Shown here piece after piece: positions 262 to 64,000 of a stretch of DNA of 64,000 bases. The notes beneath the pieces are model-generated. The model did not search any database and was not told the origin of the DNA. It worked only from the letters and a program-made list of their open reading frames with translations. Numbering within the stretch: the stretch's first letter is position 1; every line of letters starts with the position of its first letter. Both the position numbers and the translations under genes were made by a program. Source of the stretch: Bolinopsis microptera (taxonomy: Eukaryota; Ctenophora; Tentaculata; Lobata; Bolinopsidae); NCBI RefSeq assembly GCF_026151205.1, contig NC_087081.1, positions 3,169,246 through 3,233,245 of the forward strand, given 5' to 3'.

Positions 262-1740
262 TTTGAGGACTGAAGAGTACTGAAGAGTACTGAGGAGGAT
301 GGCTGAGAAGGATGGCTGAGGAGGATGGCTGAGGAGGATGACTGAGGAGGATGACTGAGGAGGATGACTGAGAGGGAGGAGAAGGATCAGGAAGACCCAG
401 GAGGAGGAGGAGGAGGAGGACCCAAAAGGAGGACCTAGGAGGAGGAGGAGAACTGAGGAGGATGACTCAGGAGGAGGAGGACTCAGGGGGAGGACTGAGG
501 AGGACTGAGAAGGAGGAGGACTGAGGAGGATGGCTGAGGAGGATGGCTGAGGAGGATGACTGAGAGGGAGGAGGAGGAGGAAGAGGAGGAAGAGGAGGAA
601 GAGGACTGAGGAGGAGGAGGAGAAGGACTGAGGAGGAGAAGGAGGACCCAGGAGGAGGAGGACCCAGGAGGAGGGGTCCAGGAGGAGGACCCAGGAAAAG
701 GCCCCAGGAGGAGGAGGAGGACCGGGGAGGAGGAGAACTGTTGAGGACTGATGAGGAGGACTGAGGACGAGGAGGAAGAGTAGGAGGAGGACTGAGGAGG
801 GGAGGAGGAAGAGGACTGGGGAGGATCAGGAAGACCCAGGAGGACCCAGGAGGAGGAGGACCCAGGAGGACCCAGGAGGAGGAGGAGGACTGAGGAGGAC
901 TGAGGAGGAGGACTGACGATGACTGAGAAGGAGGAGGACTGAGGAGTACTGAGAAGGATGGCTGAGGAGGATGGCTGGGGAGGATGGCTGAGGAGGATGA
1001 CTGAGGAGGATGACTGAGAGGGAGGAGGACTCAGGAGGAGGACTCAGAAGGAAGAGGAGGAGGACTCAGGAGGAGGACTTAGGAGAAATGAGAAGGAGGA
1101 CTGAGGAGAACTGAGGAGGAGGAGGAGGATCAGGAGGAGGACTGAATAGGAGGAGGAGAAGGAGGGGGACTGGGAGAGGACTGGGGAGGAGGAGGACTGA
1201 TGAGAAGGATGAGGAGGAGGACCCAGGAGGAGGAGGACTGAGGACCGAGGAGGAAGAGGAGGAGGATGAAGAGGAGGAGGAGGACCCAGGAGGAGGAGGA
1301 CTGAGGAGGAGGACTGAGGAGGAGGACTGAGGAGGACTGAGGAGGATGGCTGAGGAGGATGACTGAGAGGGAAGAGGAGGAGGAGGAGGAGGACTGAGGA
1401 GGACTGAGAAGGAGGAGGAGGACTGAATAGGAGGAGGAGGAGGGGGACTGGGGGAGGACTGAGGAGGAGGATGGAGGACTGAGGAGAAGGATGAGGAGGA
1501 GGACTAAGGAGGACTGAGGACTGAGGAGGAAGAGGAGAAGGATGAAGAGGAGGAGGAGGACCCAGGAGGAGGACCCAGGAGGAGGACTCAGGAGGAGGAG
1601 GAGGACTGGGGAGGAGGAGGACTGATGAGGAGGACTGAGGACGAGGAGGAGGAGTAGGAGGAGGACTGAGGAGGGGAGGAGGAAGAGGACTGAGGAAGAT
1701 CAGGAAGACCCAGGGGGAGGAGGAGGAAAAGTAGGAGGAG
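262..1740. repeat. 1.5-kb homopurine (GGA-rich) low-complexity tract
   Basis: The plus strand is almost all G and A, built from GGAGGA, GACTGAGGAGGA and GGATGGCTGA, with short CCCAGGA interruptions. A GAGGAGGACTGATGAGGAGG-type module recurs near 730-760 and 1612-1640. No reading frame with a recognisable protein is present. Such purine-pyrimidine tracts can adopt triplex or quadruplex structures and are prone to copy-number change and assembly collapse; that is general knowledge, not shown here. Confidence 0.9.
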
Positions 1741-1760
1741 GAAGCATCTAAATGTTATTT

Positions 1761-1985
1761 CCATTTTTGTCCGTTTTTGTCCGTTTTTGTCCATTTTTGT
1801 CCGTTTTTGTCCGCTCTATTTTTTGTCCGTTTTGAAAATATAGGGTACCGAACGGACAAAAAAACATGATCCCCCTATAACAGCAAAAATTGAACATTTT
1901 ATTAAGCAATTTAGGTGTCCATATGTCCGCCTATGTCTGCCTATGTCCGCCTATGTCCGCCTATGTCCGCCTATGTCCTGTCCTT
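1761..1985. repeat. Two 10-bp arrays: TTTTTGTCCG and CCTATGTCCG
   Basis: At 1761-1822 the unit is TTTTTGTCCG (about six copies). At 1914-1975 it is CCTATGTCCG (about six copies). A spacer holding the inverted end motif (1863-1877) separates them. The second array runs into a copy of the sequence found near 50-83, which shares TCCTTTTTGGATTCTATGAG with the left end. Confidence 0.85.
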
Positions 1986-2050
1986 TTTGGATTCTATGAG
2001 AGAAGCGGACATAGACGGACGTGACACCCCCCCCCCCCCCCCCCCCCCCC

Positions 2051-2318
2051 GTTATAAAACTCAGCATGTCATTAAAAGGCACAATCACTGCGTCATCCGT
2101 GATGTCATCATGATCTCCAAACCAATCCATCCTTTAATGTATGTCAGAGAATATTGCAAGTGTTCAGTTGGCAACTATCATTCTTAGCCTTTACATATAT
2201 AAAGTCATAACCTTGACTAAAATAGTGACATTACAGCGGTTGTCATTGGTTACCAAAGCTATCCCGCCTCTTAAGCCCTACTTGTCACAGTGTTACTTTC
2301 TCTAAACTCACTAATACG
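2051..2318. other. Single-copy-looking spacer
   Basis: About 270 bases between the satellite block and the foldback element. No open frame, RNA gene or repeat was recognised. Confidence 0.6.
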
Positions 2319-2848
2319 TTAAGGGGGCCGGGGGGGGTCTTTATGAAATTTCTCTCAAAATTGATTTTATAGTTGTTTCTAATAGAGGGGAGTGATATCT
2401 ATCTGCTACTTTTGGTCCCATGGAAAAATATTGTTCCTAGACGAAATTATTGGCGGTCAAAGGTCAGCGCTCATGTGTAATTGTATTGCGCGAGCGATTT
2501 TCAATCGCGCGCCCTGAAAATCGAGTCTAAAAATCTATCTTCTCCTACATTTTTTGAGCAATCACCTTGAAACTTTCAGGATATGTTCTAAGGAGCATTT
2601 AGAAACTTCAAAAAATGTAGGAGAAGATAGATTTTTAGACTCGATTTTCAGGGCGCACGATTGAAAATCGCTCGCGCAATACAATTACACATGAGCGCTG
2701 ACCTTTGACCGCCAATAATTTCGTCTAGGAACAATATTTTTCCATGGGACCAAAAGTAGCAGATAGATATCACTCCCCTCTATTAGAAACAACTATAAAA
2801 TCAATTTCGAGAGAAATTTCATAAAGACCCCCCCCCCTGCCCCCTTAA
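2319..2848. mobile_element. TTAA-ended foldback (long-TIR) element
   Basis: Two arms of about 240 bases (2319-2557 and 2608-2848) are near-perfect reverse complements, separated by a loop of about 50 bases. Both outer ends read TTAAGGGGGC inward, so TTAA is either the target duplication, as in piggyBac- and Kolobok-type elements, or part of the inverted repeat. The few differences are in the G-runs and single positions such as GCGCGC versus GCGCAC. There is no room for a transposase, so this is a non-autonomous MITE/foldback. The near identity of the arms suggests a young insertion or ongoing gene conversion. Confidence 0.9.
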
Positions 2849-4608
2849 ATAACTCCTAGTGAACCCTGAATCTAGGTTTACATTAGTGATGCATTGTTCA
2901 ATAACCAGATCCTAGAGCAGCACTTTTTACTATCGCTAGTGTTTAAGTCATCATGTGTCAATGTCATGATGCTGCTTTACTTAAGGAGATATTAGCCAGG
3001 GGTTCCATGCGTGAAACTAGAGGTAGTGCTGATTGTCATTGTAATTAGAAGATGAACATATTGTAAACTCCCTGTTTACGTTAGTATTCACTGTACTCCA
3101 GTTATCACATTACACAACATGTTTACCTTCAGTTATATGCAGCATCATGAAGTGACTTTGACAAGTAACTTTAACACGTGACTTTGAGACTAGTTACTTT
3201 ACCGTGAGGGACATCATGACAATATTATGACACCTGCCTTGATTTAAACAGAACCTTCTCTCTTATGAGACACTTCTGTGACATTTCCAGGTTATTAATA
3301 AAACATTACCAGTTGTCAAGTGTTTAATTAAGTCATTTGTGACACCCTGCTGACAGACATTCAGAGATAGAGGTATAAATCATGTGTAAAAACATTGGAC
3401 AGCATAAGATCATCAGAACGCGTAATGTCTCGCTGTATTGACATCATTGTATTTCATTTAACCTGTACACTAACCAGTATGTAATGATATCATCATATTT
3501 CATATAATAAACTCTCTGATTTACACTGTACAGAGTAGCTATAAGTCCTTGGATGCGCCCAATAACATAATTTAGCAACTAATTTCAGATATAAGCGACT
3601 AAATATAATGCACTTAGCATTATTACTTTACTTGTACGGAATCTGGCTTTCAGCCAGCTAGAATTTAGCGTTTTACAGCAAAACATTAAGCTCAAAGATT
3701 TGAGATGACTCTGCACTGTTCACTGACTGCAAACCTCCCGTGTGATTATGAGGATCAAAAACATCAAGCAGAGTAAAGCAGGCGCAGCTGACATTACAAG
3801 TACATTATAGTTATGTAATTCCTACAATATACAGATGTCTAGACGAACATTTGGAACTGAACTTGTTGTCCACTTTACATAGCACTCAATTTCTTCTCTC
3901 AAGCCATTTAAATTAGTTTAAGTCCAACATTTTATGACAGGAAATTTCGTTAAAAGTTTCGAAAAACGTCACAGGCTAATGTATAAAATGTAAATACATT
4001 TTTTCCTGTACAGTGTACATAAATTTTATATATAATAAATTTGAAATGTATGCTGCAAGAGCACACTATACACGCAATGTGTATATTAATATATTTCCTG
4101 TATAATACTTGTCACATTGTTTCACATAGTCTCACGACGAATGGGGAAATGTCCAGCACACATTTTACACATTCTACACAATCTATATATTCTACAAATT
4201 TTACATATTCTACACATTTTATATATTCTACACATTTACATATATTTATTAACCATGCCATATATAATAAATTCACGGAATCCTAAATAAAGGTAATGTA
4301 AAAACTAAAAATAATTTTTTCTGTACTATGTCAAAGTATATTTAAGTCGCTTTAAGTTAGAAACATGTCCAGAAAAAGTATAATTTCTTTAGTGAGCTAT
4401 GTGTTGGGCAATGTGTGAGTGATAAGTACTTATTTGGCTTTCAATGTATTTGTACTCCTCAGCCTCAGTTTTAGACCATAGCGAGTGAAAAGAAAGCAAT
4501 AAAACTATCCTTTAATTAAACCTTAAGCTAAGAAGTAATTCTTGCATAAAAAGTCAGTATAATTAACTTTTTGATGCAGAATGAGATAATTGTACTCAAT
4601 GAACTCAC
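2849..4608. other. AT-rich non-coding stretch, no gene recognised
   Basis: No frame resembles a known protein on either strand. If the PTB gene to the right continues leftwards, this is intron. I looked here for the next PTB exon on the minus strand and found none. 4150-4245 is rich in TACACATTTTA-like steps. Confidence 0.5.
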
Positions 4609-6354: not shown

Positions 6355-7109
6355 TAGGGACTACCGGTGGGTGATGAATAATTGAGAATCCAACAGGATC
6401 TTGTTCTCTTCATTGTGCTGATTCCGGGAAGCATTCGTTTTACGCTCTAATCCTATTAAAAATCGAGATATCGGTCATTGAAAAATGAGTAATTATAGGC
6501 CTGTCAAAGATTGCAGCCCAATTAAGAGCTGATCAGTTGCAGCTACTTGTGCCATATAAGGGATAACTGAAGTCACGTGACCGCCAATCCTATCACGTGA
6601 CCTTGATTCGTAAATCCTTGGTCACGTGATCACATTCGTAACGTGTCGAATGCTGACTAGGATATCTCGTGACGTCACCAGAGCTCAAGCTTCCTGACCA
6701 GGCCTTATATGGAATAATATAGTGTATCACGTGTAATTGGATCCAATTAAGATGAGCTGCGCAATTATCGCAGCATCTCGATCTGGTATCACCTTTTGAA
6801 ACCCAGCAGGCAGCTGGGCCAGAGGTTTATAAAATAGAAGGATTTTTTGTTGATGAAAATCGAAGCGAAAATCATGTAACCCTATGTTTCCGAGGACGCC
6901 GAACACGATAAAACTGGTTATAATTATCATACTCAAGGGCAAATTGCTTTAAAATGCACTTGAATGTCATCAAGGATGGTAAATGCGTTTTGGGGAGACT
7001 ACGCGTAGGTACTACGCATACGTATTTCCCGATGATAAATTACGTATTTCAAATTAAGTTGCAGTAACGCGCGAAGATCTATATATAAATATTACGTTAC
7101 AGTATATGG

Positions 7110-7187
7110 AATCGTGGCCTAATTGGTTAATACGCTAGCTCCATATCAGCAGATTGCGAGTTCGAGACTCGGATGTGATCATTTTTT
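7110..7187 (+). tRNA. tRNA-like sequence with pol III boxes (pseudogene or SINE head)
   Basis: An A-box-like TGGCCTAATTGG (7115-7126) and a B-box-like AGTTCGAGACT (7159-7169) are spaced as in a tRNA. The segment AATATGG-free core ATCAGCAGATTGCGAGTTCG resembles arginine-type tRNAs. A run of six T (7182-7187) follows as a possible pol III terminator. The acceptor stem ends do not pair convincingly and the anticodon stem is weak, so this is not a functional tRNA as read. Confidence 0.5.
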
Positions 7188-7413
7188 CCCATACTTTTTG
7201 GCAATTATGAATAACTAATGAATAACTAAAAATACCTCTGTTATGTAATATAACAAGCAAGGTGAAATGAAATCGTCATCCGGCTGAAAAATTTATTATA
7301 GCCGTTTTAAAAGTTTATTATAGCCGTTTTTTCTTTCCAGGCTGGATTCCTAGTCACTTTTTAAACTTATGCCACTGGGAAGTCCGTGTTAATCCGGTAA
7401 CCGGTTTCAAAAT

Positions 7414-7635
7414 TCAAGCAAGAGAGACTTGTGATCTTAGTCTGCGAATATTGTAATAGATAAAAATGCACTGGAACTGGGTCTCGGTTGAAAGTCTATT
7501 CCTCGAGGGAGGCATAACTGCTTTATAACCTGAGAAGCTCTGCTCTGCAGCAGACTGACTGATTGGTTGGTTCAGCATAAGAATAGCAAGTCGCTGCAGC
7601 GTTTTCATTCGAGCACCGTGAAGTCTCCAAAACGA
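7414..7635 (-). pseudogene. hAT transposase C-terminal dimerisation domain, remnant
   Basis: The frame reads FWRLHGARMKTLQRLAILML, then SAAEQSFSGYKAVMPPSRNR and LSTETQFQCIFIYYNIRRL. This is the pattern of the hAT family C-terminal dimerisation region: a tryptophan, a leucine-rich helix, a serine/alanine-rich turn before an E-x-x-F-S motif, then RNRLS. A stop lies just upstream and the catalytic core is absent, so it is a fragment. It identifies the surrounding 883-bp element as hAT-derived. Confidence 0.8.
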
Positions 7636-8329
7636 CTGTCAGTATTGCTATATTAATATACCACTGGGCCAGCGACGCACGCGCAAATATCACTAATCTG
7701 TAATCACGTATTTCGAAAGAGATACGCGCGTATTTTGGAAAATTTTACCATCAAAGAATTTAAGCGCCAAATTTTGCCGTATTTCACGTATTTCTTAGAA
7801 TTTTTGAATACGGCGTATTTACAGGCGATTTTTTGACGTATTTACCATCGATGAATGTCATAGATGTTATTATAAGCTAAGCGCCTGAGCGGCTTATTGG
7901 GTGGCACCAGTCTCTCTGCCGAATCTCAGTAATTGTAAATGTAAACAACGACGCTACTAATTCTCAACTAATAATCGGGCTTATGAAGGAAAGATCTCAA
8001 GTTCAGAAGACGAAAGAAATTTATTCAAATATTTGCTTAAGATTAACGAATACGGATTTCAACCAATATCGAAAAGGACTACCAAGGATTGTATCGGGAC
8101 TTCTACAAGCGGCATTTCAAGTCTTTATAACGGTTTAAGGATGAACTTACGGTATTTAAGGATTGTGCTAGGGCTACTTACGGATAAGTTGACGCTCCTG
8201 TTATGAGAATGGTCCCCTTCCGTTGTACACTACTCATTACCTTCTGCCTCAAATTTAAAGTTAACCTTACCTTTAACATTAAACTTTTTCCTATCATAAT
8301 ATGTAGTTAATATTACCTTGTATCTTACA

Positions 8330-8785
8330 ATTTGAGTTACCATTAACTTGTGCCTTATATCTGGAGTTAACGTTACATTATACCTTATATCTGGAGTTAA
8401 CGTTACATTATACATTACTTATTCTAGAGTTAACATTAGCTTGTGCCTTACATCTAGAGTTAACAATTAACATTAACTTGTGCCTTACATTTAGAGTTAA
8501 TGTTACATTATACCTTATATCTGGAGTTAAAGTTACATTATACCTTACATCTAGTGTTATTGTTAACGTTACATTATACCTTTCATCTAGAGTTATAACG
8601 TTACATTATACCGTACATCTTGAGTTAACGTTACATTATACCGTACATCTTGAGTTAACGTTACATTATACCTTTCATCTAGAGTTAACGTTACATTATA
8701 CCTTTCATCTAGACTCTAGAGTTAACGTTACATTATACCTTACATCTAGAGTTAACGTTACATTATACATTCATGTTATTTTCTT
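8330..8785. repeat. Tandem array, about 31 bp per unit, in the left arm of element A
   Basis: Head-to-tail copies of a unit containing GTTAACGTTACATTATACC and ATCTAGA. Copies differ slightly (ATCTTGA, ATCTGGA). The 106-aa open frame across it is periodic (LYLTSRVNVT-like) and is not considered a gene. The inverted counterpart is at 9080-9490. Confidence 0.88.
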
Positions 8786-8789
8786 ACCT

Positions 8790-9079
8790 TTCTTTTGACG
8801 TATTACCAAGAAATCGCTGGACCTCGTTAGTCGATAAGGATCCAGTTAGTGACGAGCTATGAAGTTATTATTCGACCTCTTTAATGCTGATTCTGTCAGC
8901 GAAGAGTTGTGAAGAAATTAATCAAGACCTCGTTTATATCCTCGTTCAACAAATATACTCATCTGGTAACCAAATCCCTTATATGACCTTCTTCTGAGGA
9001 TCCGAAAACCAAGTCTACCCATATCAGAACCTACTGACTTCATTAAACCAATCAATAAAAAGAAGAAGAACTCTGGATA
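8790..9079. other. Loop region of palindromic element A
   Basis: About 290 bases without an inverted partner, ending in an A/G-rich run (AAAAAGAAGAAGAAC). No coding frame was recognised. Confidence 0.5.
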
Positions 9080-9490
9080 CAATGTAAGGTATAATGTAAT
9101 GTTACAGTTAACTCTGAAGTAAGGTATACGATAATTTTAACTTTACATGTGGCGTGGAAGGTAATGTTAACTCACGAATCACGATGTAAGGTATAATGTA
9201 ACGTTAACGGTATAATGTAACGTTAACTCAAGATGTACGGTTTAATGTAATGTTAACTCTAGATGTAATGTATAATGGAACGTTAACTCCATATATAAGG
9301 TATTTAATGTAACATTAACTCTAAATGTAAGGCACAAGTAAATGGTAACTCTAATTGTAAGATACAAGGTAATATTAACTACATATGCTAAGTAAAAGGT
9401 AAGGTTAACTCTAATTGTAAGATACAAGGTAATATTAACTACATAAGATAGGTAAAAGGTAAGGTTAACTTTAAATTTGAGGCAGAAGGT
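9080..9490. repeat. Inverted counterpart of the 31-bp array
   Basis: The same units as at 8330-8785 in reverse orientation (GGTATAATGTAACGTTAAC). The array length differs from the left arm, as expected of unequal exchange after the palindrome formed. Confidence 0.85.
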
Positions 9491-9522
9491 AATGAGTAGT
9501 GTACAACGGAAGGGGACCATTC

Positions 9523-10958
9523 GGTTCTTTTGCGATAGTCAAAACGCGACAACTAGCGCTGGATGGCGACAACTAGCGCTATCCAGCGCTAGTTGTCGCC
9601 ATCCAGCGCTAGTTGTCGCTATCCAGCGCTGGATAACGCTGGCCAGCGCAAAATATATATGTTCGATAATTGTCGCTATCCAGCGCTAGTTGTCGCCATC
9701 CAGCGCTAGTTGTCGCCATCCAGCGCTAGTTGTCGCTATCCAGCGCTAGTTGTCGCTGGCTATGCGACACTGTCGCACGCGATAGTTTGCGATGGCCAGC
9801 GCAACTGGCCATCGCAGAAAACAGTTCGATAACTAGCGCTGGATGGCGACAACTAGCGCTGGATAGCGACAACTAGCGCTGGATAGCGACAACTAGCGCT
9901 GGCCAGCGCTGGCCAGCGCTGGCCATCGATATCCAGCGCACAATTTTTGCGCTATTACTCGTCAGCTAGCGCTGGCCAGCGCTAGCCAGCGCTAGTTGTC
10001 GCTATCCAGCGCTATCCAGCGCTAGCCAGCGCTAGCCAGCGCTAGCCAGCGTTAGCCAGCGCTAGCCAGCGGTAACCAGCGCTAGCCAGCGCAATGTTAT
10101 GTATCAAAATCATATACTTGGATGATGATTAATCACTTTACACTTGACTGTCACGTGCCTTTTTAATCCATTCTCTGACTCTAGCTGGTTCTGAACGACT
10201 TTTCGAAACCCCAACCCTCTAAGTCTAATTTGATCCCAACCCTAACCCTAACCCAATCTTTAACAAAAACATATGCTGAAACCCTAACAATAACGAGAAA
10301 TTAGACTAACTTCCTTATACGGTCATATCACGTGATCGATACATGTACAGTTTTTCGCCAATGGCAATATCTCGTCAGGAGAGCATTTTAACCCTATGTC
10401 ATGGGCCCATAGAGGTTGATTCGGAATTAGCGTCCGAAAATACATCGATTGAAGTTGGACACAACCATCGGGGGCCCTTTTAGAACAATCTCGAAGGTCG
10501 ACTGTAGAGTGATTTAGCACGCTCGATATTAGTATTACTCGTCAGCCAGCGCTGGCCAGCGCAATATAGTTGCGATATTACTCGTCAGCTAGCGCTGGCC
10601 AGCGCTGGCCAGCGCTGGCTAGCGCTGGTTAGCGCTGGCTAGCGCTGGTTAGCGCTGGTTAGCGCTGGTTAGCGCTGGCTAGCGCTGGTTAGCGCTAGCT
10701 GACGAGTAATAGCGCAAAAATTTTGCGCTGGATATCGATGGCCAGCGCTGGCCAGCGCTAGTTGTCGCTATCCAGCGCTAGTTGTCGCCATCCAGCGCTA
10801 GTTGTCGCTATCCAGCGCTGGATAGCGACAATTATCGAACATATATATTTTGCGCTGGCCAGTGTTATCCAGCGCTGGATGGCGACAACTAGCGCTGGAT
10901 AGCGCTAGTTGTCGCCATCCAGCGCTAGTTGTTGCGTTTTGACTATCGCAAAAGAACC
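9523..10958. mobile_element. Element C1: AGCGCT-array transposon nested in element A
   Basis: The ends are GGTTCTTTTGCGATAGTCAA and its inverse, flanked by a perfect 8-bp duplication GACCATTC (9515-9522 and 10959-10966). The subterminal regions (about 9540-10090 and 10530-10940) consist of dozens of AGCGCT palindromes in 20-bp modules such as CTAGTTGTCGCTATCCAGCG and GCTAGCCAGC. The centre (about 10090-10530) is ordinary sequence and matches 61830-62030. No transposase was seen. A second member lies at 59805-62751. The 8-bp duplication suggests a hAT-type mechanism. Confidence 0.9.
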
Positions 10959-11936
10959 GACCATTCTCATAACAGGAGCGTCAACTTATCCGTAAGTAGC
11001 CCTAGCACAATCCTTAAATACCGTTAGTTCATCCTTAAACCGTTATAAAGACTTGAAATGCCGCTTGTAGAAGTCCCGATACAATCCTTGGTAGTTCTTT
11101 TCGATATTGGTTGAAATCCGTATTCGTTAATCTTAAGCAAATATTTGAATAAATTTCTTTCGTCTTCTGAACTTGAGATCTTTCCTTCATAAGCCTGATT
11201 ATTAGTTGAGAACTAGTATAGCGTCGTTGTTTACATTTACAATTACTGAGATTCGGCAGAGAGACTGGTGCCACCCAATAAGCCGCTCAGGCGCTTAGCT
11301 TATAATAACATCTATGACATTCAAGTGCATTTTAAAGCAATTTGCCCTTGAGTATGATAATTATAACCAGTTTTATCGTGTTCGGCGTCCTCGGAAACAT
11401 AGGGTTACGTGATTTTCGCTTCGATTTTCATTAACAAAAAATCCTTCTATTTTAAAATCTCTGGCCCAGCTGCCTGCTGGGTTTCAAAAGGTGATACCAG
11501 ATCGAGATGCTGCGATAATTGCGCAGCTCATCTTAATTGGATCCAATTACACGTGATACACTATATTATTCCATATAAGGCCTGGTCAGGAAGCTTGAGC
11601 TCTGGTGACGTCACGAGATATCCTAGTCAGCATTCGACACGTTACGAATGTGATCACGTGACCAAGGATTTACGAATCAAGGTCACGTGATAGGATTGGC
11701 GGTCACGTGACTTCAGTTATCCCTTATATGGCACAAGTAGCTGCAACTGATCAGCTCTTAATTGGGCTGCAATCATTGACAGGCCTATAATTACTCATTT
11801 TTCAATGACGGATATCTCGATTTTTAATAGGACTAGAGCGTAAAACGAATGCTTCCCGGAATCAGCACAATGAAGAGAACAAGATCCTGTTGGATTCTCA
11901 ATTATTCATCACCCACCGGTAGTCCCTACTGATATC

Positions 11937-15831: not shown

Positions 15832-17496
15832 CTACATCGGTGTTTCTATAATTACATCCTCGGCAGTTACAATAGCTTGTGGCGATCCCTCCTGGATATC
15901 ACCTTCCGTCTCCACAGTAACAACTTCCGTCTTTACTGCATAACTAAGAAGTTCTAAGATATGTGACACCATTTGAACATCTACCAGCAAAACTTTTGAC
16001 AATCTCACTAAAATATTCTCTCAAACTGTTGTCGTACAGTAGGGGGTTGATGACAGAATTGAGGGGTAAAACTATCATCGCAAAAGTGACGTACCAATCT
16101 GTTGCATCGATTGACCTGAGATTGTGGAGCCCACTGATGATTATGAATGGAACCCAACAAGCAAAATCTGTTGCTATAATGAACGCAATCCTGTTCTGCA
16201 TTTTGCCGACAGCCCCCGAATTGTTGTTTTGCCCAGAACTACTGGATGATTGCCGAGCTTGTAGTCTGGATTATAGAACATGCCCTGTACAAAGTAGTCC
16301 TCTAAAGCGGGGAACAAAGGTATAATCGCTACTGATAGCGAAACAGTAACGATTCCAATTACAATCCAAACCGTTTTAGTAACAACTTCTCTTTTATTGA
16401 CACGGATTGGAACGCTTAGAGAACCGCTCAAAATGTGTCCCATCCGGATCAGGCTTAAAACAGCCATAGAAAATAAAGAGAGTTGTGATCCCGTAGTACT
16501 GATTACTCCAAGAACAGAACATGTGGTTCCTGATAACCAATCTGCTTGCCTTACACAATAATTCTTTCCGTGAACAAAACTGTCAAATACTGACAGTACG
16601 ATCATGTAGACTCCAATGAGAAAATCTCCAAATCCGATTAAACAGACAAGTACTCTAGTGCTGAACATACTTTCTGTTGTGGATTCTTTAATGGAACTTC
16701 CAACTTTGGTCACCATGATGACATTAAAAATGGATGCTAAAAGGCCCATCAGCCAACAATTAAGTTTCAACACCCAATCGTCTAAAATTTCCTTACCACA
16801 TGACTGATTGCATTCATCTGATAAATCAAAACAGTCAAATCTACCATCACAGTTCTGGGAATGAGATATTAGTTGCTCTTTCACATTTGTCCGGTTCTTC
16901 GTATTCTCACAGACTAAATGGTTGGTACACATCTGCTCATCTGACCTGTCACCACAGTCATCGACTAGATCACAAACTTGACTATACTTTATACATTTGG
17001 CATTTTCACATTGGAAAATGTTGTTCTCATATTCAGCTTCATTAGACCTTGTCACAAGAGTCAAAGAATTGTTAGCGAGAGTGTAGACTCGATCAGGATA
17101 CTGACCAGGACATGAATCATAGTTTAGAAAAGTGTTCTGAAGAGGACAAGTCGAGTTTACACATAAATCCATGCAACTTAAGAAGACATAATATTCGCCA
17201 AATAGACCTGTACAGTCCACTTTGGAATTTGGGACGTTGAGCATTATCTTGACACCAAAAGCATTTCCTGCTGGACTCTCAAACTCCCTAATATGACAAG
17301 CTGAATTGTATTCAGATTTCTTTATTGATTGACACAAATCTCGCCCAGCACATGTTTTGATAACAGCTGTTGTATCGATAGTTGGGAAATCTCTTGAAAT
17401 CGTACAGATCTCATTTTCGACTTCACAAGAGTTTACACCATCACAAAGAAGATCAAACTCAACATAACTTTTCTTTGAATCTCCAGGACACAGCAA
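15832..17496 (-). pseudogene. LDLa and 7TM part of the receptor pseudogene
   Basis: LDLa signatures include CIKYSQVCDLVDDCGDRSDE and NCDGRFDCFDLSDEC (about 16800-17010). TM1 is about 16690-16770, TM2 holds FGDFLIGVYM, TM3 runs SQLSLFSMAVLSLIRMGHI (R in the DRY/ERW position), and TM4 is WIVIGIVTVSLSVAIIPLF. After EDYFVQGMFYNPDY the frame runs on for about 25 unrelated residues and stops at 16174. Another frame picks up a Ser/Gln/Asn-rich loop, then TM6 (DFACWVPF) and TM7 (LPLNSVINPLLY), ending at 15944. TM5 is not encoded anywhere between them. Beyond the 15944 stop a different frame runs to 15832 (KTEVVTVETEGDIQ, ending at TAG) and looks like an acidic C-tail, but this is ambiguous. Leucine-rich repeats, usual in LGR/RXFP, are absent. 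Confidence 0.82.
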
Positions 17497-17564
17497 AACG
17501 TCCTGACAGGTTTTGTTTCCTACGATTAGTCGATCAGTACCTCCATCTTTCTCTCCACAGTGTG

Positions 17565-18470
17565 TCAGCTCAATGTTCCTTTTTCATCTTCTCCATTCAG
17601 ACAATCAGATTGGTTATCCGATAACCAACTGACAGGAATCTCCATACTTCTATCAGGATTAAAACTACGTTCACAATTGAAGTAACCCACCGTTGTAAGT
17701 TGGCATATGTCAAGGGTCTCATCACTGCTATCTTCACAATCACTAATACCATCACAAAGTTTGTGTTTATGAACAACACATGATGTATCATGCTCAGATG
17801 GTAAAATACATTCACTATCTAGGTTATCATCACATAGATTTGCTGGGTTTTCTACCAAGGGACTATCACAAACCACGTACTTTGATACACTTGACCTATA
17901 ACCATTGATCAAACAGTAACCACCCACTCTGTACACATCAGTGCAGTTTGTTTGGTCTAGATAACCGTAACAATACGGAGATACGTATGAACTGAGATCG
18001 AACACAGCACACCTAGTGTAGCTGAATATGGGGACCAGACTCTCCTCTCCATCCCAGTATTTCTTACCGAAATGAAGACAGGTCTCAAGCGTGGTGTTCT
18101 CAACATCAGTACAGTTCATCTCATCCTCCTTGTTTAAACAACTATAGTATCCGTTACAAACAAATTCAACTGGCACATACCCTCCAATTAAATCTTCAGT
18201 ATCACAGTAAACTCCGTATACGTGACCACCACACACAGCCTCATCCTCACAAAACATCGAGTCACACTTGTCGTTACAACCATCTACTATGTTGCTGCTG
18301 TCATACCGTGACATATTAGTGTTATCACCCCAATCATTTTCAGAATCGACAAAAGTTTGTACACTTAAATTTGTATCATTCTTTAAATGACCTCCACAAA
18401 GGTAATTGCTATCTCCTGTTATTTTCGTGTTGAACCCACACGCCTGATAAAAGTTCGGGTCATTAACACA
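17565..18470 (-). pseudogene. Cys-rich and LDLa-like ectodomain segment, left of transposon B
   Basis: This is the part of the last exon between transposon B and the frameshift. In frame it starts with FLCVNDPNFYQACGFN, then runs through Cys-rich units to CNGYYSCLNKEDEMNC and KLCDGISDCEDSSDETLDIC, the latter a good LDLa calcium-cage motif. The frame stops at 17565. Shifting by one base at the five-T run 17580-17584 (A-run on the coding strand) continues into the 7TM-containing frame without a further stop. That fits a single-base homopolymer indel, either genuine or a sequencing error. Confidence 0.8.
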
Positions 18471-18478
18471 CAGGAAAG
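18471..18478. repeat. Target-site duplication of element B, left copy
   Basis: CAGGAAAG, repeated exactly at 22350-22357. On the coding strand it is CTTTCCTG, inside the receptor exon. Confidence 0.92.
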
Positions 18479-19149
18479 TAGGGACTACGGGTGGAAGATG
18501 AATAATTGATATTCCAACAGCATCTTGTTCCCTGCATTGTGCTGATTCCGGGAAGCATTCTGTTTACGCTCTCATCATTCTGTAGGATGAGATATCGTTC
18601 ATTTAAAATTGGGTAATTATAGGCCTGTCAAGGATTGCAGCCTAATTAAGAGCTGATCAATTGCAGCTAGTTGTGCCATATAAGGGATAACTGAGGTCAC
18701 GTGACATTCAGTCCTATCACGTGACCGCTAATCCTATCACGTGACCTTGATTCGTAAAGCCTCGGGCACGTGATCACATTCGTAACGTGTCGTATGCCGA
18801 CTAGGAGATTTTGTGACGTCACCAGAGCTGAAGCTACTTGATCAGGCCTTATATGGAATAATATCGTGTATCGGGTGTAATTGGACCTAATTAGAGCAGC
18901 TGAGCGCTCAATTATAGCAGCATCTGGTACCACCTTCTGAAACCCTGCAGACAGCTGGCCCAAAGAATCGAAATTAGAAGGATTATTTATTGATGGAAAT
19001 CGAAGCGGAAACCTTGTAACCCTATGTTTTCGATGACGCCGAACAAGATTAAACAGGTTATAATTGTCCTACTCTCGTGTAAATTGCTCTAAAACGTGAT
19101 TGAAATTTTAATGATGCTATCAATTGTAATACAGTTTTTACATTAAGCT

Positions 19150-19558
19150 TGTAGGGATCCCAGATATTGGTCGGTTTAAAGTTAACGGTATTTGGTTCCA
19201 AGTTCAAACCGTTTTATGTTCAGTGTCAATAGCCATTGCGACCTCAAGCAATTATTTGGCTCATTAGTTAAACCGTTTTTAAGCTTAATTAAGCAACGCC
19301 ACGCACTGATTAGATATTTCAGATATACCGTTAGTATTGCCTCGCAAGCAATCCGCCCATATAAATAGTTAGAGTTTTGGAGTAAAGTTATCCCACATTT
19401 TCACTATTCCCTTTAGTCGGTCTTGTTTATACGTGTTGTTCTATTCCCTAATATACCCTTTTGTTCTAACGTTGTTATCCTCCTTGTTTCTCTTTGTTTG
19501 ATCCTTCTCAAAGTAAAGAACGCAAAGTAAATTCAAGTAGGAACACGGCAAACCTACA
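19150..19558 (+). repeat. Gypsy-type 5' LTR, 409 bp
   Basis: Starts TGTAGGGATC and ends AACCTACA, giving the TG..CA boundaries with a 5-base inverted terminus (TGTAG/CTACA). CATATAAATAG at about 19358-19368 is a plausible TATA box for the U3/R boundary. A primer-binding-site-like TGGCGCGAACGGTAGG follows two bases after the end. No 3' LTR was found. Confidence 0.78.
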
Positions 19559-19560
19559 AG

Positions 19561-19578
19561 TGGCGCGAACGGTAGGAT
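19561..19578 (+). other. Primer binding site of the Gypsy fragment
   Basis: TGGCGCGAACGGTAGGAT starts with TGG, the complement of a tRNA CCA end, two bases after the LTR. The primer tRNA was not identified. Confidence 0.6.
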
Positions 19579-19590
19579 CTATTCATCATC

Positions 19591-20574
19591 ATGGGAGAAC
19601 GAACCTTCGCAAACCAAGAAGAACTCGAAGCATATGTCGCAGAAAGGATTAAAGCACAGTCGGACAAGGACAACCAAGGCAAGGTACCCTACCTGCCCAC
19701 ACGAAAGCCAGAGCGGTTCAACCCAGCTCTGTCCACATTCTCTGATTGGATCCTTGGATGGGAATCATACATGACGCTGCTCCACCTGCCCAAAGGAGTC
19801 CTGGGAGTCCTCAAAACCTTCCTGGAGACGGATGCACTAAAACTCATCAGCTCGAGACAGTTCTCAGATGAGGAAGAGACAAACTGGGAAGAAACAGTTA
19901 AGCCGACGTTGATGGCCATACTAGACTCAGACAGAGTCATAGACAAAGAGGCCCTGAAGAGCAAATTCCTGAAGACTGCTCAACAACTATCCGAAGACAT
20001 CGCTACTTTCGGAAGCAGGGTTAAAAGAGCGTACTTTGAGGCGTACGGGGCTGCGGCCAACGAAGATCTATTGAAGCTCGTGTTCCAGAATGGACTGCGG
20101 AACAGGAATCTTGTACTACAGCTTTCAATGTGGCAAATGGATTTGACCGATACGCCAAGGACATTTACCGAGGTCCTGACAAGAGCCCAGAAAATCGAGT
20201 CGGCCATGGGAGTCAGCACAGCATTGGAGATCAACGATCAAACACACGACATTCTCGCTATCAACAGGCATACACCAGAACCTCCTCGAACTAGGGCTGA
20301 ATTCCCAGCTGAACGACGCAGCTTCTATCCTCACCACCAGCAACAAGCAAGAGCGCCTATGAACTTCAGACCTGAGCACACTCGAGGTATAGATGCAGGA
20401 CAAAGCGGACCATCACGATATAGGCACCAGGAGACACGGACTTGTTTCTATTGCAACAGAGTTGGTCATATAGTAAGGGACTGCAGGACAAAGCAGAGGG
20501 ACCAGTACAGAGACAGGAACCAGAATCAACACGGAGGTTCTTCATCCCACAACAACCCGGCTTCGGAAAACTAA
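19591..20574 (+). CDS. Gypsy-type Gag protein, intact frame
   Basis: A 327-codon frame. Residues about 30-210 are a capsid-like helical region (PERFNPALSTFSDWILGWES, with later FLKTAQQLSEDIATFGSRVK). Residues about 284-297 hold a CCHC zinc knuckle, CFYCNRVGHIVRDC. The C-terminus is polar and basic. Gag assembles the particle that packages retrotransposon RNA. The frame is complete, but the element has only LTR, gag and a piece of protease, so it is defective. The protease frame overlaps the gag end in the -1 frame, as is common in such elements. Confidence 0.86.
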   Translation: MGERTFANQEELEAYVAERIKAQSDKDNQGKVPYLPTRKPERFNPALSTFSDWILGWESYMTLLHLPKGVLGVLKTFLETDALKLISSRQFSDEEETNWEETVKPTLMAILDSDRVIDKEALKSKFLKTAQQLSEDIATFGSRVKRAYFEAYGAAANEDLLKLVFQNGLRNRNLVLQLSMWQMDLTDTPRTFTEVLTRAQKIESAMGVSTALEINDQTHDILAINRHTPEPPRTRAEFPAERRSFYPHHQQQARAPMNFRPEHTRGIDAGQSGPSRYRHQETRTCFYCNRVGHIVRDCRTKQRDQYRDRNQNQHGGSSSHNNPASEN

Positions 20575-20795
20575 TAAGGCCCTCCCACGACAAAAGGGGG
20601 AGGGCCCCTGATAGTATATACCTTTGTCAAGGAGACGTGTACATAGAAGCCCAAGTCGGTAGCCGGCCTTCCGAGTTTATGTTGATTGACACAGGCTCCT
20701 CTCAAAACCTCATTTCATCAGAACACCTAAAAGACCTAGGAATTGAACAGAGAAACCTCAACAAGTGCACGGCGAACCTTGCCGGAGTCACAGGT
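20500..20795 (+). pseudogene. Gypsy-type protease fragment, truncated
   Basis: The frame, -1 relative to gag, reads GDVYIEAQVGS and then LIDTGSSQNLIS, the aspartic-protease active-site motif DTG in retropepsin context (about 20678-20716). It breaks off near 20795, where sequence of a different LINE on the minus strand begins. Reverse transcriptase, RNase H and integrase are absent. Confidence 0.78.
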
Positions 20796-20796
20796 A

Positions 20797-21140
20797 CTAA
20801 AAAAAGTATTTAGTCGAGCGCTCCCCCTCCTCTGTCCATTTCACACGTGATCTGGTAATTGCACCTCTCACCTCCTGATCTATAATATGATTTAAATCCA
20901 ACTCTGCTTCAAATAATTTCTTCTGTAGTATCGTACAGTTTACTAGATTCGAATCGTTTTTACAGTCTTCAATATCTTTTTTTAACTTTTCTTTTTTCAC
21001 TGTGATTTCTTTTTTTTTTCTTTTTACCAAAGGTCATTCCAAACTGTTTTATTTTGATTTTTATAACGCATGGTTTTCCTTGTGGCTCAAAAGAAAACGA
21101 AGGATGTCCTTGTTTGTCGGAGGACTGTGACATGGAAGGC
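20797..21140 (-). pseudogene. L1/Tx1-type LINE ORF2 fragment
   Basis: The minus-strand frame reads KKKKEITVKKEKLKKDIEDC, then GAITRSRVKWTEEGERSTKY. This matches the linker just upstream of the reverse transcriptase in L1-clade ORF2 proteins (GAxIRSRAxWxEEGExxxKYF). Neither endonuclease nor reverse transcriptase core is present. It abuts the truncated Gypsy protease, so the two were joined by deletion or by insertion followed by deletion. Confidence 0.72.
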
Positions 21141-21678
21141 TGTCACACGTTCCATCAATAAAATCTGACAACTTCATTGCAATATTGAGAAAACTATTTG
21201 AGAAATGATCACTATTCATATAGCGGTGTTACATTGATTTTAGTTACGTTGCAATTTTACTCGACTCTTATCAGTTCACTTCTTATCAGTGCGATCGCAG
21301 TAAGTTTTACTGTGTGCAACAGTTACATAACTGTAACTGTATAATACACATAACATTAACTCTGTAATGCACTTCAAACTGCAGTATAAAGAGTACGCAC
21401 TTCGCACAAATGACAAGAAGGTAATGGTAATACGATTTTTGGTATTAATATCTTAATATTAATAACACGGCTTGTTCGATTCAAGCCCGTTCAATGTGGT
21501 CAATACCTGATGTGCGGATCACAGGCTTCGTTATTTACAATAACTGAGATTAGGCAGATATAGCGGTTCCAGTCGTTACCTGGGGACCCCAGGCTGTAAT
21601 ATTCATAAAAATTGAAGCTGCGGCGGAATGACAATCTGGGATGAGTGCGGCCCAGGAATGCCAGCCGTTACGCCGCTC
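21141..21678. other. Unidentified interior of element B
   Basis: No coding frame. 21555-21678 contains pieces of the short dispersed repeat (CTGGGGACCCCAGGC, GGCGGAATGACA, CGCCGCTCAGC) seen at several other places in the window. Confidence 0.55.
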
Positions 21679-22349
21679 AGCTTAATGTAAAAACTGTATT
21701 ACAATTGATAGCATCATTAAAATTTCAATCACGTTTTAGAGCAATTTACACGAGAGTAGGACAATTATAACCTGTTTAATCTTGTTCGGCGTCATCGAAA
21801 ACATAGGGTTACAAGGTTTCCGCTTCGATTTCCATCAATAAATAATCCTTCTAATTTCGATTCTTTGGGCCAGCTGTCTGCAGGGTTTCAGAAGGTGGTA
21901 CCAGATGCTGCTATAATTGAGCGCTCAGCTGCTCTAATTAGGTCCAATTACACCCGATACACGATATTATTCCATATAAGGCCTGATCAAGTAGCTTCAG
22001 CTCTGGTGACGTCACAAAATCTCCTAGTCGGCATACGACACGTTACGAATGTGATCACGTGCCCGAGGCTTTACGAATCAAGGTCACGTGATAGGATTAG
22101 CGGTCACGTGATAGGACTGAATGTCACGTGACCTCAGTTATCCCTTATATGGCACAACTAGCTGCAATTGATCAGCTCTTAATTAGGCTGCAATCCTTGA
22201 CAGGCCTATAATTACCCAATTTTAAATGAACGATATCTCATCCTACAGAATGATGAGAGCGTAAACAGAATGCTTCCCGGAATCAGCACAATGAAGGGAA
22301 CAAGATGCTGTTGGAATATCAATTATTCATCTTCCACCCGTAGTCCCTA

Positions 22350-22522
22350 CAGGAAAGAGACACTGGCTAGTGTGTAAATCTCACGTTTTATACCTTCAAC
22401 TAATCTGTTCTGTTGCACATAGGTTACGTTGGAATACGGGCACATGTGAAAGTACTCTTTTTTACTGTCATCAAAACACAGATTCTTCAGGAATCCCCCA
22501 ATATTTGTTACTGTGCAACTAA
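22350..22522 (-). pseudogene. 5' part of the last receptor exon, right of transposon B
   Basis: In frame it reads NIGGFLKNLCFDDSKKEYFH and on to REIYTLASVSFL, where the transposon begins. Without the transposon and one copy of the 8-bp duplication the frame passes directly into FLCVNDPNFYQACGF at 18470. Acceptor choices CCAG (exon start 22522) or CACAG (22510) fit the phase-1 end of the upstream exon. Confidence 0.75.
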
Positions 22523-22732
22523 CTGGTGTTTGGATCCTTTCACTTCTCCTCGACACACCCTGGATGATATGTTTTGTCAATATCTTTGTTATAAAAATAA
22601 TAATCTATTTTTTGTTTAATATTGATGTAAAGAATATAAACCAGGGACCATCAATGTCTTAACATATTCACCCTAAATAAATCTTGATCAGTTCGATATC
22701 GCTTACTCCTCAATTATTCAGTTAAACTAAAC

Positions 22733-22887: not shown

Positions 22888-23026
22888 CTGAATTATTAAA
22901 CAGATGCGTGAAGACTAAACAATATTCAAAATATGTAATGACTCGAAAAGATACCAAAATGAAACAAGGTTTCCATTCCAACAGTAATGTAAGTTTATAT
23001 ACCAACTAAAACTCAGTGTCACTCAC

Positions 23027-23267
23027 TCAGGAAGGTATTTCATGCTTCTAGAGTAACTCCCCCAATATGAGAAGTGATGCCCGATAGACCGACAGAAAAG
23101 CTGTGCTGAATGCCAGTTAAACTCGTGTTTACAAACAGCTCCTTTTTTCTCTTCCCCAGTTTGCTTGTTAATGACTGTTGCCATCAAAAGACCTTGGCTA
23201 TCATTTACCACCTCTGTTCTGTTTACCATGTTTACTAGAGTTGCACCCCCAAATTCCCACACACGCT
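23027..23267 (-). CDS. Receptor exon: N-terminal half of the second SRCR-like domain
   Basis: Acceptor TTTCAG, donor GTGAGT. It reads RVWEFGGATLVNMV, then GAVCKHEFNWHSAQLFCRSI. The F/W-x-x-x-A-x-x-x-C-R pattern is that of SRCR domains (compare ..A..VCRQLG). It pairs with the exon at 22733-22887. Confidence 0.78.
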
Positions 23268-23836
23268 CTGAAATTATCATAGAAACACTAACAGTTGGTG
23301 GACGTTCGTTTTTACGACAATATAAAATCCTAAAAAAGGTAACATCACTACTTTGAAAGTTTGAACCGCAGAAACCTTATACTATTATGTATAATGGTCC
23401 ACTGATTTTTGGGTATAGACTTTGAGTACCTCAATCGTGTCTTGTGAAATCCTCAGTGACCTTGTAAGATGGTCATTCAAGAAAAATTCAGTCGAACAGC
23501 GAAATTTGGGTCACGGAAAGCTGAAATTCGAATATGTCCTACAGGTAGGACATATTCAAAATTTTCATTGCATCAAAGTTTTCTCCGGATTTACTGCTTC
23601 CAGTACCTTGTTGGCGACTTGTGTCACTCTCACTGACCTCACTGATTGGTCACTGGTCAAAATTTCAATCAAAACCACGAAATTTCGGCCAAGAATATTA
23701 TGATGATTTTCCGTTTATCAAAGCTTTCTTTGGGAATAAAAATTTGAGAACCTCAATACTCAATAGTTAACATGACCTCGTAGAACACTGCTGTTCATTG
23801 TACATCAGTTAATTTAAAAGTTATCCAACTACTAAC
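23268..23836. other. Intron of the receptor gene
   Basis: Donor GTTAGT at 23836 and acceptor TTTCAG ending at 23268. No other feature was recognised, apart from a short palindrome at 23541-23560 (TCCTACAGGTAGGA). Confidence 0.6.
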
Positions 23837-24271
23837 CTATATAGAACGCATCTGACGCAGTGTCCCAATAAGAGTCGAACTCTATACTGCTCACTCTTCG
23901 TCTCCAATAAGTTTCCCAGGTATCAGCGTAGTTAGGGTGATCGCACGTGTCAGTGGATAATGTTATGTTAAGAACCAGCTTTCCGTTACAATAGATAACA
24001 ATTCTGTAACCCCGTCTTTCGATTACCCAGTGTTTATCAGCTTCTACTGATAAACTTTCAGGGAAGAGGGCCCTTCCGTCCTGACAATGCGGCAGTCGAT
24101 ACTCCACAGTGGAAGAGAAGTAGATCACAATACCCCCTGCCCCATTCTCTTCATTGTCGTACTCGTAGAACGATATCATTGTCATGTCTCCACTGCCCAC
24201 TAAACTGTTTGTTTTCAGGTGTAGGTATGATGTCTCAAGGTCAGCATGGATATATTTGTCACGTACTACAG
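23837..24271 (-). CDS. Receptor exon: conserved lectin-like extracellular domain
   Basis: It reads RDKYIHADLETSYLHLKTNS, GSGDMTMISFYEYDNEENGA, GIVIYFSSTVEYRLPHCQDG and, near the end, WETYWRRRVSSIEFDSYWD. This resembles a domain that recurs in cnidarian, placozoan and amphioxus extracellular proteins (beta-rich, with conserved HC..FP, ADKHW and YCN positions) and has been compared with Methyltransf_FA/lectin-like folds; that assignment is from memory. The exact acceptor is uncertain: ATCAACAG is the best-looking AG but breaks the frame, whereas GGAAAG (24271) or CTGTAG (24265) keep it. Confidence 0.65.
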
Positions 24272-42125: not shown

Positions 42126-42294
42126 TATTTAACGTGCTTTTAGAAACAGGTGAGAACAAGGTACAGAACTGCATTAATTAAAAGCTACTATAGCAGCTCT
42201 ACCTACTGTTTATTCATTAAAAGCAAACCATTAAATACGGGTACTTTAATGTCCACTTTTCGGGATGGAATAAAAACTCCAGCTTCTATCCCGG

Positions 42295-42688
42295 TACCTC
42301 CCTGCCTCCCTGCTTCCCTGCCTCCCTGCCTCCCTGCCTCCCTGCCTCCCTGCTTCCCTGCCTCCCTGCCTCCCTGCCTCCCTGCCTCCCTGCTTCCCTG
42401 CCTCCCTGCCTCCCTGCCTCCCTGCCTCCCTGCCTCCCTGCCTCCCTGCCTCCCTGCCTCCCTGCCTCCCTGCCTCCCTGCCTCCCTGCCTCCCTGCCTC
42501 CCTGCCTCCCTGCCTCCCTGCCTCCCTGCCTCCCTGCCTCCCTGCCTCCCTGCCTCCCTGCCTCCCTGCCTCCCTGCCTCCCTGCCTCCCTGCCTCCCTG
42601 CCTCCCTGCCTTCCTGCCTCCCTGCCTCCCTGCCTCCCTGCCCCCTGCCTCCCTGCCTCCCTGCCTCCCTGCCTCACTGCCTCCCTGC
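42295..42688. repeat. 8-bp minisatellite CCTCCCTG, about 49 copies
   Basis: Very regular CCTCCCTG units with rare CTTCCCTG variants. Because eight bases shift the frame with every copy, the array is open in several frames (PPCLPAS on plus, GREAGRQG on minus). These long frames are artefacts of the repeat. Confidence 0.95.
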
Positions 42689-53800: not shown

Positions 53801-54440
53801 AAATGCGGGCATTCTCTACAAACTCAAAGGCTCAGTACCTAACAAAGCACTCAAGTTGATATACAACAGCTTTGTTCAGTCTCACTTGTACTACTGCTGC
53901 ACAGTTTGGGGAACAAGATCGCTAAACTCCATTAAAAGAGTCTTCTCGGCCCAGAAAAAGGGCATTCGCGCTGCAGATAACCAATACCACCGCTATTTTT
54001 ATGACAAAGATCTGAATAGCACACCTTCACACATAAAGGAAATTTTCAATAAACTAGAAGTATTAGCTTTACCGAACGTGATAGCTAAATGTATATTATG
54101 CTTAATGCACAAAGTTTATTCTAACACTGCACCACCAAATATTATAAGAATGTTCACTGTTTCAAACTTAAACGCACCTAGAAGAGAACCTGAGTTCTTT
54201 GCAGTACCATTTAACCGTTTATGTAATTCAGACAAGAGCATTTCTTACATTGGGCCTAAGTTATATAACAAAACAGTCAACATTATTAACAAGGACATAA
54301 AATACGTCACCACTTGCCTACAAGACAAATTCCTAAATTCATTCAAGTCTACAGTCAGCAAGCATGTGCTTACTGCACAAGCACTTAACCCGGATGACAA
54401 GGACTGGAACAACTCAAATTTCGTATTTTTAGAAATTTAA
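50819..54440 (+). pseudogene. CR1/L2-type LINE: zinc fingers, endonuclease and reverse transcriptase
   Basis: 50819-51410 encodes two PHD/RING-like Cys/His clusters (CKACTKRLVSHKISITCSIC, then CHTC, CCYC, HTRC). ELKVFSLNVRSL (from about 51415) starts an APE-type endonuclease, continuing with GGGLVIYV, LAGDTNIDLLDYG and SDHLATFVTI. Stops occur at 51513-51546 (paired frame changes), 52139-52141 and 52970-52972. The reverse transcriptase from 52974 is clean: SNYRPISLLSCFSKIFEKIM, LLLDYSKAFDMVD, YGVPQGSILGPILFIIYIND, YFADDANLI, KFLGVIIDTKLNW, YYCCTVWG. Order and motifs fit the CR1/L2/Jockey group, in which ORF1 or the N-terminus often has such fingers. It is nearly complete and recently inactive. 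Confidence 0.9.
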
Positions 54441-62751: not shown

Positions 62752-64000
62752 TAAAAACATACAGCAATTAATTACGAATTAAGAGGACGTGCTGCGTGGA
62801 ATATGCAGTATTCCCCTTCATAACACGCTTTTGTACAACGCGTTTACTGCATAATTTATAATATTACTAGCGGTTTTTCGGAAAAATGTTTCATCCCCTT
62901 TTACTTGGAGTCAACATTTTCAATTTGTATCCTTATTAGTTTGAACGAAATAGCGTTCTGGCATTTTATTCACTTCGTTCAAAATATGATGTTATTTTAG
63001 CTTTAAGATCATGATTAATTGTCAATTATGTCTCTTGTCATCTCTGCAATGCAAATAGCTCCTATGTTAGAGCTGATTTTAAAGCGACTAATCAGTGACC
63101 CTCTGTACAACGCAGTTATTTTACGATAAATCTATCATCCCAAAAACTGCGTTGTAAAGATCAGAGGGAGATATTACTGGGTGGCGCTCAGTCTGTCATT
63201 CCGCCGAATCTATATTGTTTTATATGAACATAATAGTCGGGGATCCCCAGGTAGAGGCCAGAGGGAGATACTGTATGCAGTATGTCAACTCATGCAAGGA
63301 AATGTTAATTTAAGCAATCACAAGCTATGAATAAATAAACCCTGTAAATTCTGCAGGTGTTAAGAGACTGTACTGCATGGATTTAATCTAAGAAAAAAGT
63401 AATTTATATTTGAGGGAGTAAAGTTATAACTATTGTATTTGTAAGGCTTAATTGCATAATATTGATTATTATCAACTACTAAATTAACACTGAGGAGAAA
63501 TAAACAATATTGCTCGCATTTCTGTGGAATTTTATCGTTTGAAACAATTCACTAATTTTGAAAAATTAATATTTCTCTGGAAGCAAATATTTGTCGCGCT
63601 TGCCAAAACGTTTGAAGAGCATACTGCATAGAGATCGAATGAATGAATAAGGTATTTATTGGACTTGAAAATGAGTCTGGGAACTTAGGACATTGACTGG
63701 GAAAATAAATGTTAAATCGACGTAAATATTGAAAAAACTCACTTCCAATACCAGAGCGTGGCTTTTTAAACAGGCATCTAATATTTTGTTTATTCTCACG
63801 ACTTCCATATTCACTTATTACTATTCAAGTATCTAGGGTATTTATATGTTATGAATATCTTTAAGATGAGAGCGATTGCTTTACTTCCTTTTGCTTTGGT
63901 TGTAAATCTGTAAATGTAATTGACTTGACGTCACACTGCATGGTAACTCCTTCATTTACATTTAACAAGCAGTTTGACAAGGCCCATTAAACAACCAAAC
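62752..64000. other. Right end of the window, no gene recognised
   Basis: GTACAACGCG and TGTACAACGCAG motifs at 62830 and 63108 resemble MITE ends. The region from 63260 on is AT-rich without supported frames. Confidence 0.45.
63177..63255. repeat. Short dispersed repeat, another copy
   Basis: GGGTGGCGCTCAGTCTGTCA, then CCGCCGAATCTATATT, TATATGAACATAATAG and GGGGATCCCCAGGTA. It aligns along its whole length with 42049-42125. Confidence 0.78.

Follow-up and report, generated by a model that had tools for sequence, protein, structure and literature searches.

Long, modular inverted repeats and 8-bp target-site duplications are features of the TU elements of sea urchins and of foldback elements. 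For the Ac/Ds system of maize (hAT), the available part of one report describes Ds2 and Ds-del copies with 8-bp duplications, TAGGGA ends, internal deletions derived from the parent element and foreign filler DNA (PMC3260210). Galileo, a member of the P superfamily in Drosophila, is depicted in the accessible sections of PMC4168063 as having long and variable inverted repeats, 7- or 8-bp duplications and copies devoid of transposase, one copy having arms that contain tandem repeats, and other transposons being lodged inside arms. Introners with target duplications, in families with median lengths of 30-654 nt, are described in what is available of PMC9860276.

Here, we analyse a 64,000-nucleotide stretch of contig NC_087081.1 of the ctenophore Bolinopsis microptera (the window; 38.8% G+C), in which a receptor exon is split by a 3,871-bp element at 18479-22349. 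In the account that we consider highly probable, this element would be a non-autonomous cut-and-paste transposon in an exon of an LDLa-receptor gene and a rearranged relative of a longer family member (L027), and the receptor copy would be a recent pseudogene with three lesions. All genome-wide searches covered a single assembly (264.65 Mb, 232 contigs).

Results

Insertion of the element in a receptor exon

The borders of the element and the adjoining parts of the exon are as follows.

17571-18473, minus strand: middle part of the receptor exon, with LDLa domain, 59% identical to paralogue L045
18471-18478, no strand: left copy of the target-site duplication, CAGGAAAG, 8 bp (sequence comparison and family duplications)
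18479-19149, plus strand: left terminal inverted repeat, 671 bp
21679-22349, minus strand: right terminal inverted repeat, 671 bp, pairing with the left arm
22350-22357, no strand: right copy of the target-site duplication, CAGGAAAG, 8 bp (same evidence)
22358-22532, minus strand: upstream part of the receptor exon (SCTVTNIGGFLKNLCFD...ASVS), placed by open frame and paralogue comparison, without a Pfam match

A preliminary description of this locus had reported a base-exact insertion with an 8-bp duplication, a minus-strand frame that resumes in phase once the element and one duplication are removed, and 671-bp terminal repeats that are almost identical; all three claims were borne out. The same eight bases lie at 18471-18478 and 22350-22357, and deletion in silico of the element with one of these copies leaves a single open minus-strand frame, ...IYTLASVSFL/CVNDPNFYQACGF... 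The arms, terminal inverted repeats as in cut-and-paste DNA transposons, differ at one position only (18534) over 671 bp, and the left arm contains three 20-bp tandem sub-repeats with CACGTG at 18697-18756. The outer end of the right arm places a TAG in frame directly after the upstream half of the receptor (the first triplet of the element on the receptor strand), and within 31 nt of this side every reading frame of the arm is closed by a stop.

A paralogue with a continuous exon and an empty-site allele had been proposed as checks on the insertion. A query of 197 nt made of the joined flanks, with the joint near base 97, gave nine candidate places, all of which were scored. Two are the separate pieces of the window locus; the seven others each span the joint with a single unbroken match (70-77% identity), the shortest of which extends beyond it by just 8 nt. 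The exon is therefore continuous in paralogues. Neither the exon query (middle part; 129 of 409 candidates scored) nor the joined-flank query found an empty site or a second allele of the window receptor copy in the one assembly searched. These sequence comparisons support insertion of a transposon, in phase, within a receptor coding exon.

The transposon family

With up to 3 mismatches allowed, the terminal 42 bp of the element have 112 genomic matches (60 forward and 52 reverse), at least 56 of them exact, counted among the matches listed; the reversed 42-bp end, used as a control, has none. As paired copies we took 23 pairs of ends that face each other over no more than 12 kb, each with at least one exact end, leaving out single ends and pairs with variant ends only (e.g. 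C3:165131 and C5:11499635); the interiors of the single-ended stretches L049-L052 were mapped, and these stretches do not enter the paired-copy counts. Target-site duplications are an exact 8 bp in 16 copies and an exact 9 bp in 5, so that 21 of the 23 carry the duplication of set length that marks a cut-and-paste DNA transposon. Of the two copies without a clean duplication, one shares 7 bases. As a control, left and right flanks from different copies were paired, and 0 of 506 such pairs share 8 or 9 bp.

For 44 of the 46 arms, the arm of another copy lies within 0-4 differences over the first 480 bp; the other two belong to L017 and L021, whose right arms lack an intact stretch of this length. 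The left arm of the window element is one difference away from L022, which equals its distance from its own right arm. Arm identity therefore reflects the recency of the family and not the age of the window insertion. The preliminary description had taken the near-identity of the terminal repeats as a sign of a recent event, a reasoning that belongs to LTRs and is misapplied here: the identity of inverted repeats does not date insertions as that of LTRs does, and we rejected it as a clock. The near-identical copies elsewhere, rather than the identity of the element's own arms, are what suggests recent activity of the family.

Interiors were mapped against the 8.9-kb copy L027 (matches of at least 60 bp, up to 14 per copy). 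Leaving L027 aside, 20 of the 22 remaining paired copies (the window's included) share interior blocks with it among the matches listed; six (L009, L015, L018, L019, L022 and L026) are deletion derivatives in which two blocks of L027 meet, with anything from an overlap of 2 nt to a gap of 3 nt, and L011 and L024 have just ~126 bp in common with its interior. Three paired copies (L016, one on C2 and one on C3) exceed L027 in length and contain other material. In the ctenophore literature covered here we found no description of this transposon; the main text of PMC11797021 does not mention transposable elements or DNA transposons by these terms, and that of PMC10232365, according to which Iso-Seq and RNA-seq served to annotate this species, has no word on transposons or transposition.

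A related transposon, presumably the one labelled "A" in the preliminary description, lies at 6355-11928; it has ends TAGGGACTACCGG and an 8-bp duplication, CTGATATC, on both sides. Its arms are 81-90% like those of the studied element in parts, and further repeats are nested inside it.

Make-up of the interior

Between its arms, the window element consists of the following pieces.

19150-20801, plus strand: 5' piece of an LTR retrotransposon, 3' part absent, 98.7% identical to a 6.4-kb element at C10:2317151-2323564
19150-19559, plus strand: 5' LTR of this piece, 410 bp, its edge abutting the 671-bp repeat
19591-20574, plus strand: gag-like open reading frame of this piece, with a CCHC zinc knuckle
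20800-21068, minus strand: 269-bp scrap of a different dispersed repeat, found at 99% in at least 7 other places (40 of 411 candidates scored)
21067-21678, plus strand: the transposon family's own interior, running inward from the right arm (interior bases 1918-2529)

Interior bases 1-1652 correspond, at 96-99% identity, to the 5' portion of LTR retrotransposons in at least 5 other places (40 of 411 candidates scored), and the piece includes the start of an aspartic protease, with a Pfam match below cutoff. In the reference retrotransposon on C10 the 410-bp LTRs are 99.5% alike; the window piece starts at the edge of the 5' LTR, and this edge falls exactly at base 671 of the element, where the arm ends. 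The joint between arm and LTR occurs once in the genome with up to 3 mismatches allowed. The scrap, which we take to be LINE-like from its motif, corresponds to interior bases 1651-1919 and overlaps its neighbour by 2 bp at each joint.

Candidate transposase pieces

L027 contains minus-strand, exon-like frames with relatives elsewhere in the genome; from their motifs and their position inside the element we presume that these frames and their relatives are transposase-like. An intact transposase was not found, and the putative exon-like pieces of L027 reach no Pfam cutoff. Eleven short L027 pieces searched against Pfam (E up to 1) gave three chance-level matches, with E of 0.17-0.18 and below cutoff, and pieces of two relatives, L053 (one piece) and L056 (two pieces), gave none at E up to 10; hAT, MULE transposase and P-element transposase domains had no match in any of these pieces. 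Searches of solved structures with the transposase-like pieces returned nothing, and a predicted fold of the C-terminal piece of L056 (pLDDT 36) was discarded. The order of the motifs DGT, CLLH, HARW and VER in these pieces presumably recalls hAT. The TAGGGA ends and the 8-bp duplication likewise recall hAT elements by analogy, and the long arms recall Galileo. In L056, at 1237-3390, a frame that by eye encodes a LINE-like reverse transcriptase passes straight into transposase-like sequence, a further chimera within this transposon group.

The receptor copy and its lesions

The remaining parts of the receptor copy, downstream of the element, are listed below.

17563-17583, minus strand: frame change, the second disabling lesion (paralogue alignments)
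16255-17583, minus strand: later part of the receptor exon, with LDLa domain, 73% identical to L045
16202-16258, minus strand: net deletion of 358-367 bp with frame change, the third disabling lesion (paralogue alignments)
15953-16201, minus strand: last transmembrane part of the receptor exon, in a different frame, 81% identical to L045

Both the middle and the later part contain an LDLa domain (PF00057) that scores above the Pfam cutoff. No seven-transmembrane Pfam model has a match in the receptor parts, and that region was judged by eye and by paralogy, the first helices being placed by eye in the later part (16255-17583). With four blocks at 59-81% identity to L045, the window copy is by sequence a member of the genome's family of LDLa-domain receptors. 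The middle part has at least 130 matches, the window copy included (129 of 409 candidates scored), many of them in open frames of more than 1,000 codons; among the scored candidates the only near-identical match is the window copy itself, all others being at 67% or less. More generally, the region at 16174-18482 opens on a receptor family that is very large genome-wide, with many open frames beyond 1,000 codons, and we found no description of large LDLa-receptor families in the accessible parts of the ctenophore literature. Upstream of the exon, minus-strand open stretches at 23026-23298 (SRCR-like by eye) and 23832-24200 are possibly ectodomain exons of the same gene.

Three paralogues chosen from the 130 matches (L045, L046 and L047, with open frames of 1,107, 1,060 and 1,055 codons) were aligned in full. 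In nucleotide alignments, the window copy has exactly two frame-changing gaps against each of them. At the protein level the smaller lesion shifts the reading frame between 17583 and 17571; in nucleotides it is 1 nt missing at 17575 relative to L045, and 2 nt extra at 17568 relative to L046 and L047. The larger, at 16258, lacks 358 nt relative to L045, and 349 nt, with 9 more nearby, relative to L046 and L047; between 16255 and 16201, ~140 codons of L045 are reduced to 53 nt. The small frame change (17568-17575) could be a base error in the lone assembly, whereas the ~360-bp deletion could not. With the element, the window copy thus has three lesions and no intact reading frame.

The four blocks nevertheless contain no stop in 878 codons, and over the 858 codons compared, changes at the three codon positions number 79/55/115 on the window branch, as against 67/59/111 on that of the intact L045. 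Since stops are absent and the codon-position changes are like those of L045, the window copy was constrained until recently. From these comparisons it appears to have become a pseudogene recently, with the transposon and the two frame-changing lesions each disabling it separately.

Other repeats in the window include a LINE-like region that has several long open frames and, by eye, a reverse transcriptase (50819-54440); inverted copies of 323 bp, 99% alike and 52.6 kb apart, inside larger repeat clusters (9520-9842 and 62432-62754); and an array with 8-bp spacing that is open for more than 140 codons on both strands (42217-42677).

Discussion

The history that we propose begins with a non-autonomous cut-and-paste DNA transposon entering the long exon of one member of the LDLa-receptor family, which would have created the 8-bp duplication and put an immediate stop codon in the receptor. 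The element itself would be a rearranged relative of the 8.9-kb member L027: its left arm may have received an LTR retrotransposon at base 671, after which an internal deletion may have removed the rest of the retrotransposon together with ~6.9 kb of backbone relative to L027, the gap being patched with a scrap of another repeat through faulty repair. The duplication, the arms, the continuity in paralogues, the composition of the interior and the other lesions are observed directly; the cut-and-paste movement, the entry of the retrotransposon, its later loss in part through imperfect repair of a gap, and whatever sequence these events followed are inferred. A retrotransposon insertion followed by a patched internal deletion would be the simplest history, comparable to that of Ds2 with its filler as far as the available part of PMC3260210 describes it.

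The preliminary description held that the allele should be null unless the element is excised or skipped. The interruption of the exon is as claimed; the role given to excision has to be abandoned. It is improbable that the transposon is the sole cause of the loss, such that excision, or an individual free of the element, would yield a working receptor. The halves of the exon do join in frame and most of the exon is stop-free and under normal constraint, but the same exon carries the frame change and the frame-changing ~360-bp deletion, and the current assembly contradicts such a reading. We rejected restoration by excision because the frameshift near 17575 (17568-17575) and the deletion near 16258 would remain. 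These two lesions also make it quite possible, just short of an even chance, that the receptor copy was already dead and that the transposon landed harmlessly. This is a statement about order and is compatible with the three-lesion pseudogene that we favour; one assembly, however, gives no order, and the constraint on the window branch says only that all of the lesions are fairly recent.

It is very improbable that the element acts as an intron in the manner of introners, being removed by splicing with joint expression of the two halves of the exon. At 6 nt inside the element end there is a fair acceptor (13 of 17 pyrimidines), and nine donors and eight acceptors near the ends form 72 GT/AG pairs, five of which give an open in-frame join, the best being stop-free and length-neutral. 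Its donor, however, is weak, matching the consensus at just 5 of 9 places. Shuffled ends yield a mean of 6.8 open in-frame pairs and reach five or more in 144 of 300 shuffles, so the five observed are at chance level, and on this ground we rejected the introner reading; the earlier statement that no splice sites would remove the element exactly stands. Moreover, the downstream receptor lesions would persist after splicing, and the element measures 3.9 kb, against family medians of 30-654 nt in the accessible text of PMC9860276. Scarcely credible, finally, is an assembly artefact that fused unrelated pieces: long near-identical repeats are difficult to assemble, but the duplication is exact, the exon continues on either side of the element, and the same kind of duplication flanks 20 other paired copies. 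We thus retain the insertion of a non-autonomous transposon into a receptor copy that bears two further lesions.

In a receptor family of this size, the insertion of a transposon in one of the genes is nothing out of the ordinary. The locus provides a base-exact case of a transposon with retroelement filler in a ctenophore, and a lesson for calls of this kind, namely that a gene whose halves join in frame around an insertion need not be functional in other respects. Better subjects for study may be the recently active transposon family, with its putative transposase pieces below the Pfam cutoff, and the very large LDLa-receptor family, of which at least the window copy is recently dead. We also entertain, as a speculation that is rather unlikely to hold in full, that the family represents an undescribed superfamily of animal DNA transposons, recently active in this ctenophore, which acquires pieces of retroelements when gaps are repaired faultily and thins out an LDLa-receptor family with fast turnover. 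Arms of up to ~0.9 kb ending in TAGGGACTAC, the 8- and 9-bp duplications and a transposase without a Pfam match are what this doubtful idea would rest on.

Among described systems, the TU and foldback elements, by their general description, share the long modular arms and 8-bp duplications of the window family. The likeness to introners lies in a DNA transposon with duplications inside an exon, as presented in the available text of PMC9860276, and the window element departs from them in its length and its weak donor. In common with Ds2 and Ds-del, as far as these are covered in the portion of the maize report cited above, the window family has 8-bp duplications, TAGGGA ends, internal deletions and foreign filler; unlike Ac/Ds, it has arms of 671 to ~916 bp instead of 11 bp, 9-bp duplications as well, and transposase-like pieces without a hAT Pfam domain. 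From Galileo it differs in duplications of 8 or 9 bp and in pieces without a P-element Pfam domain, whereas its long and variable inverted repeats, a copy whose arms carry tandem repeats, the copies without transposase and the transposons inserted in arms all find their counterparts in Galileo as portrayed in the accessible sections of its description.
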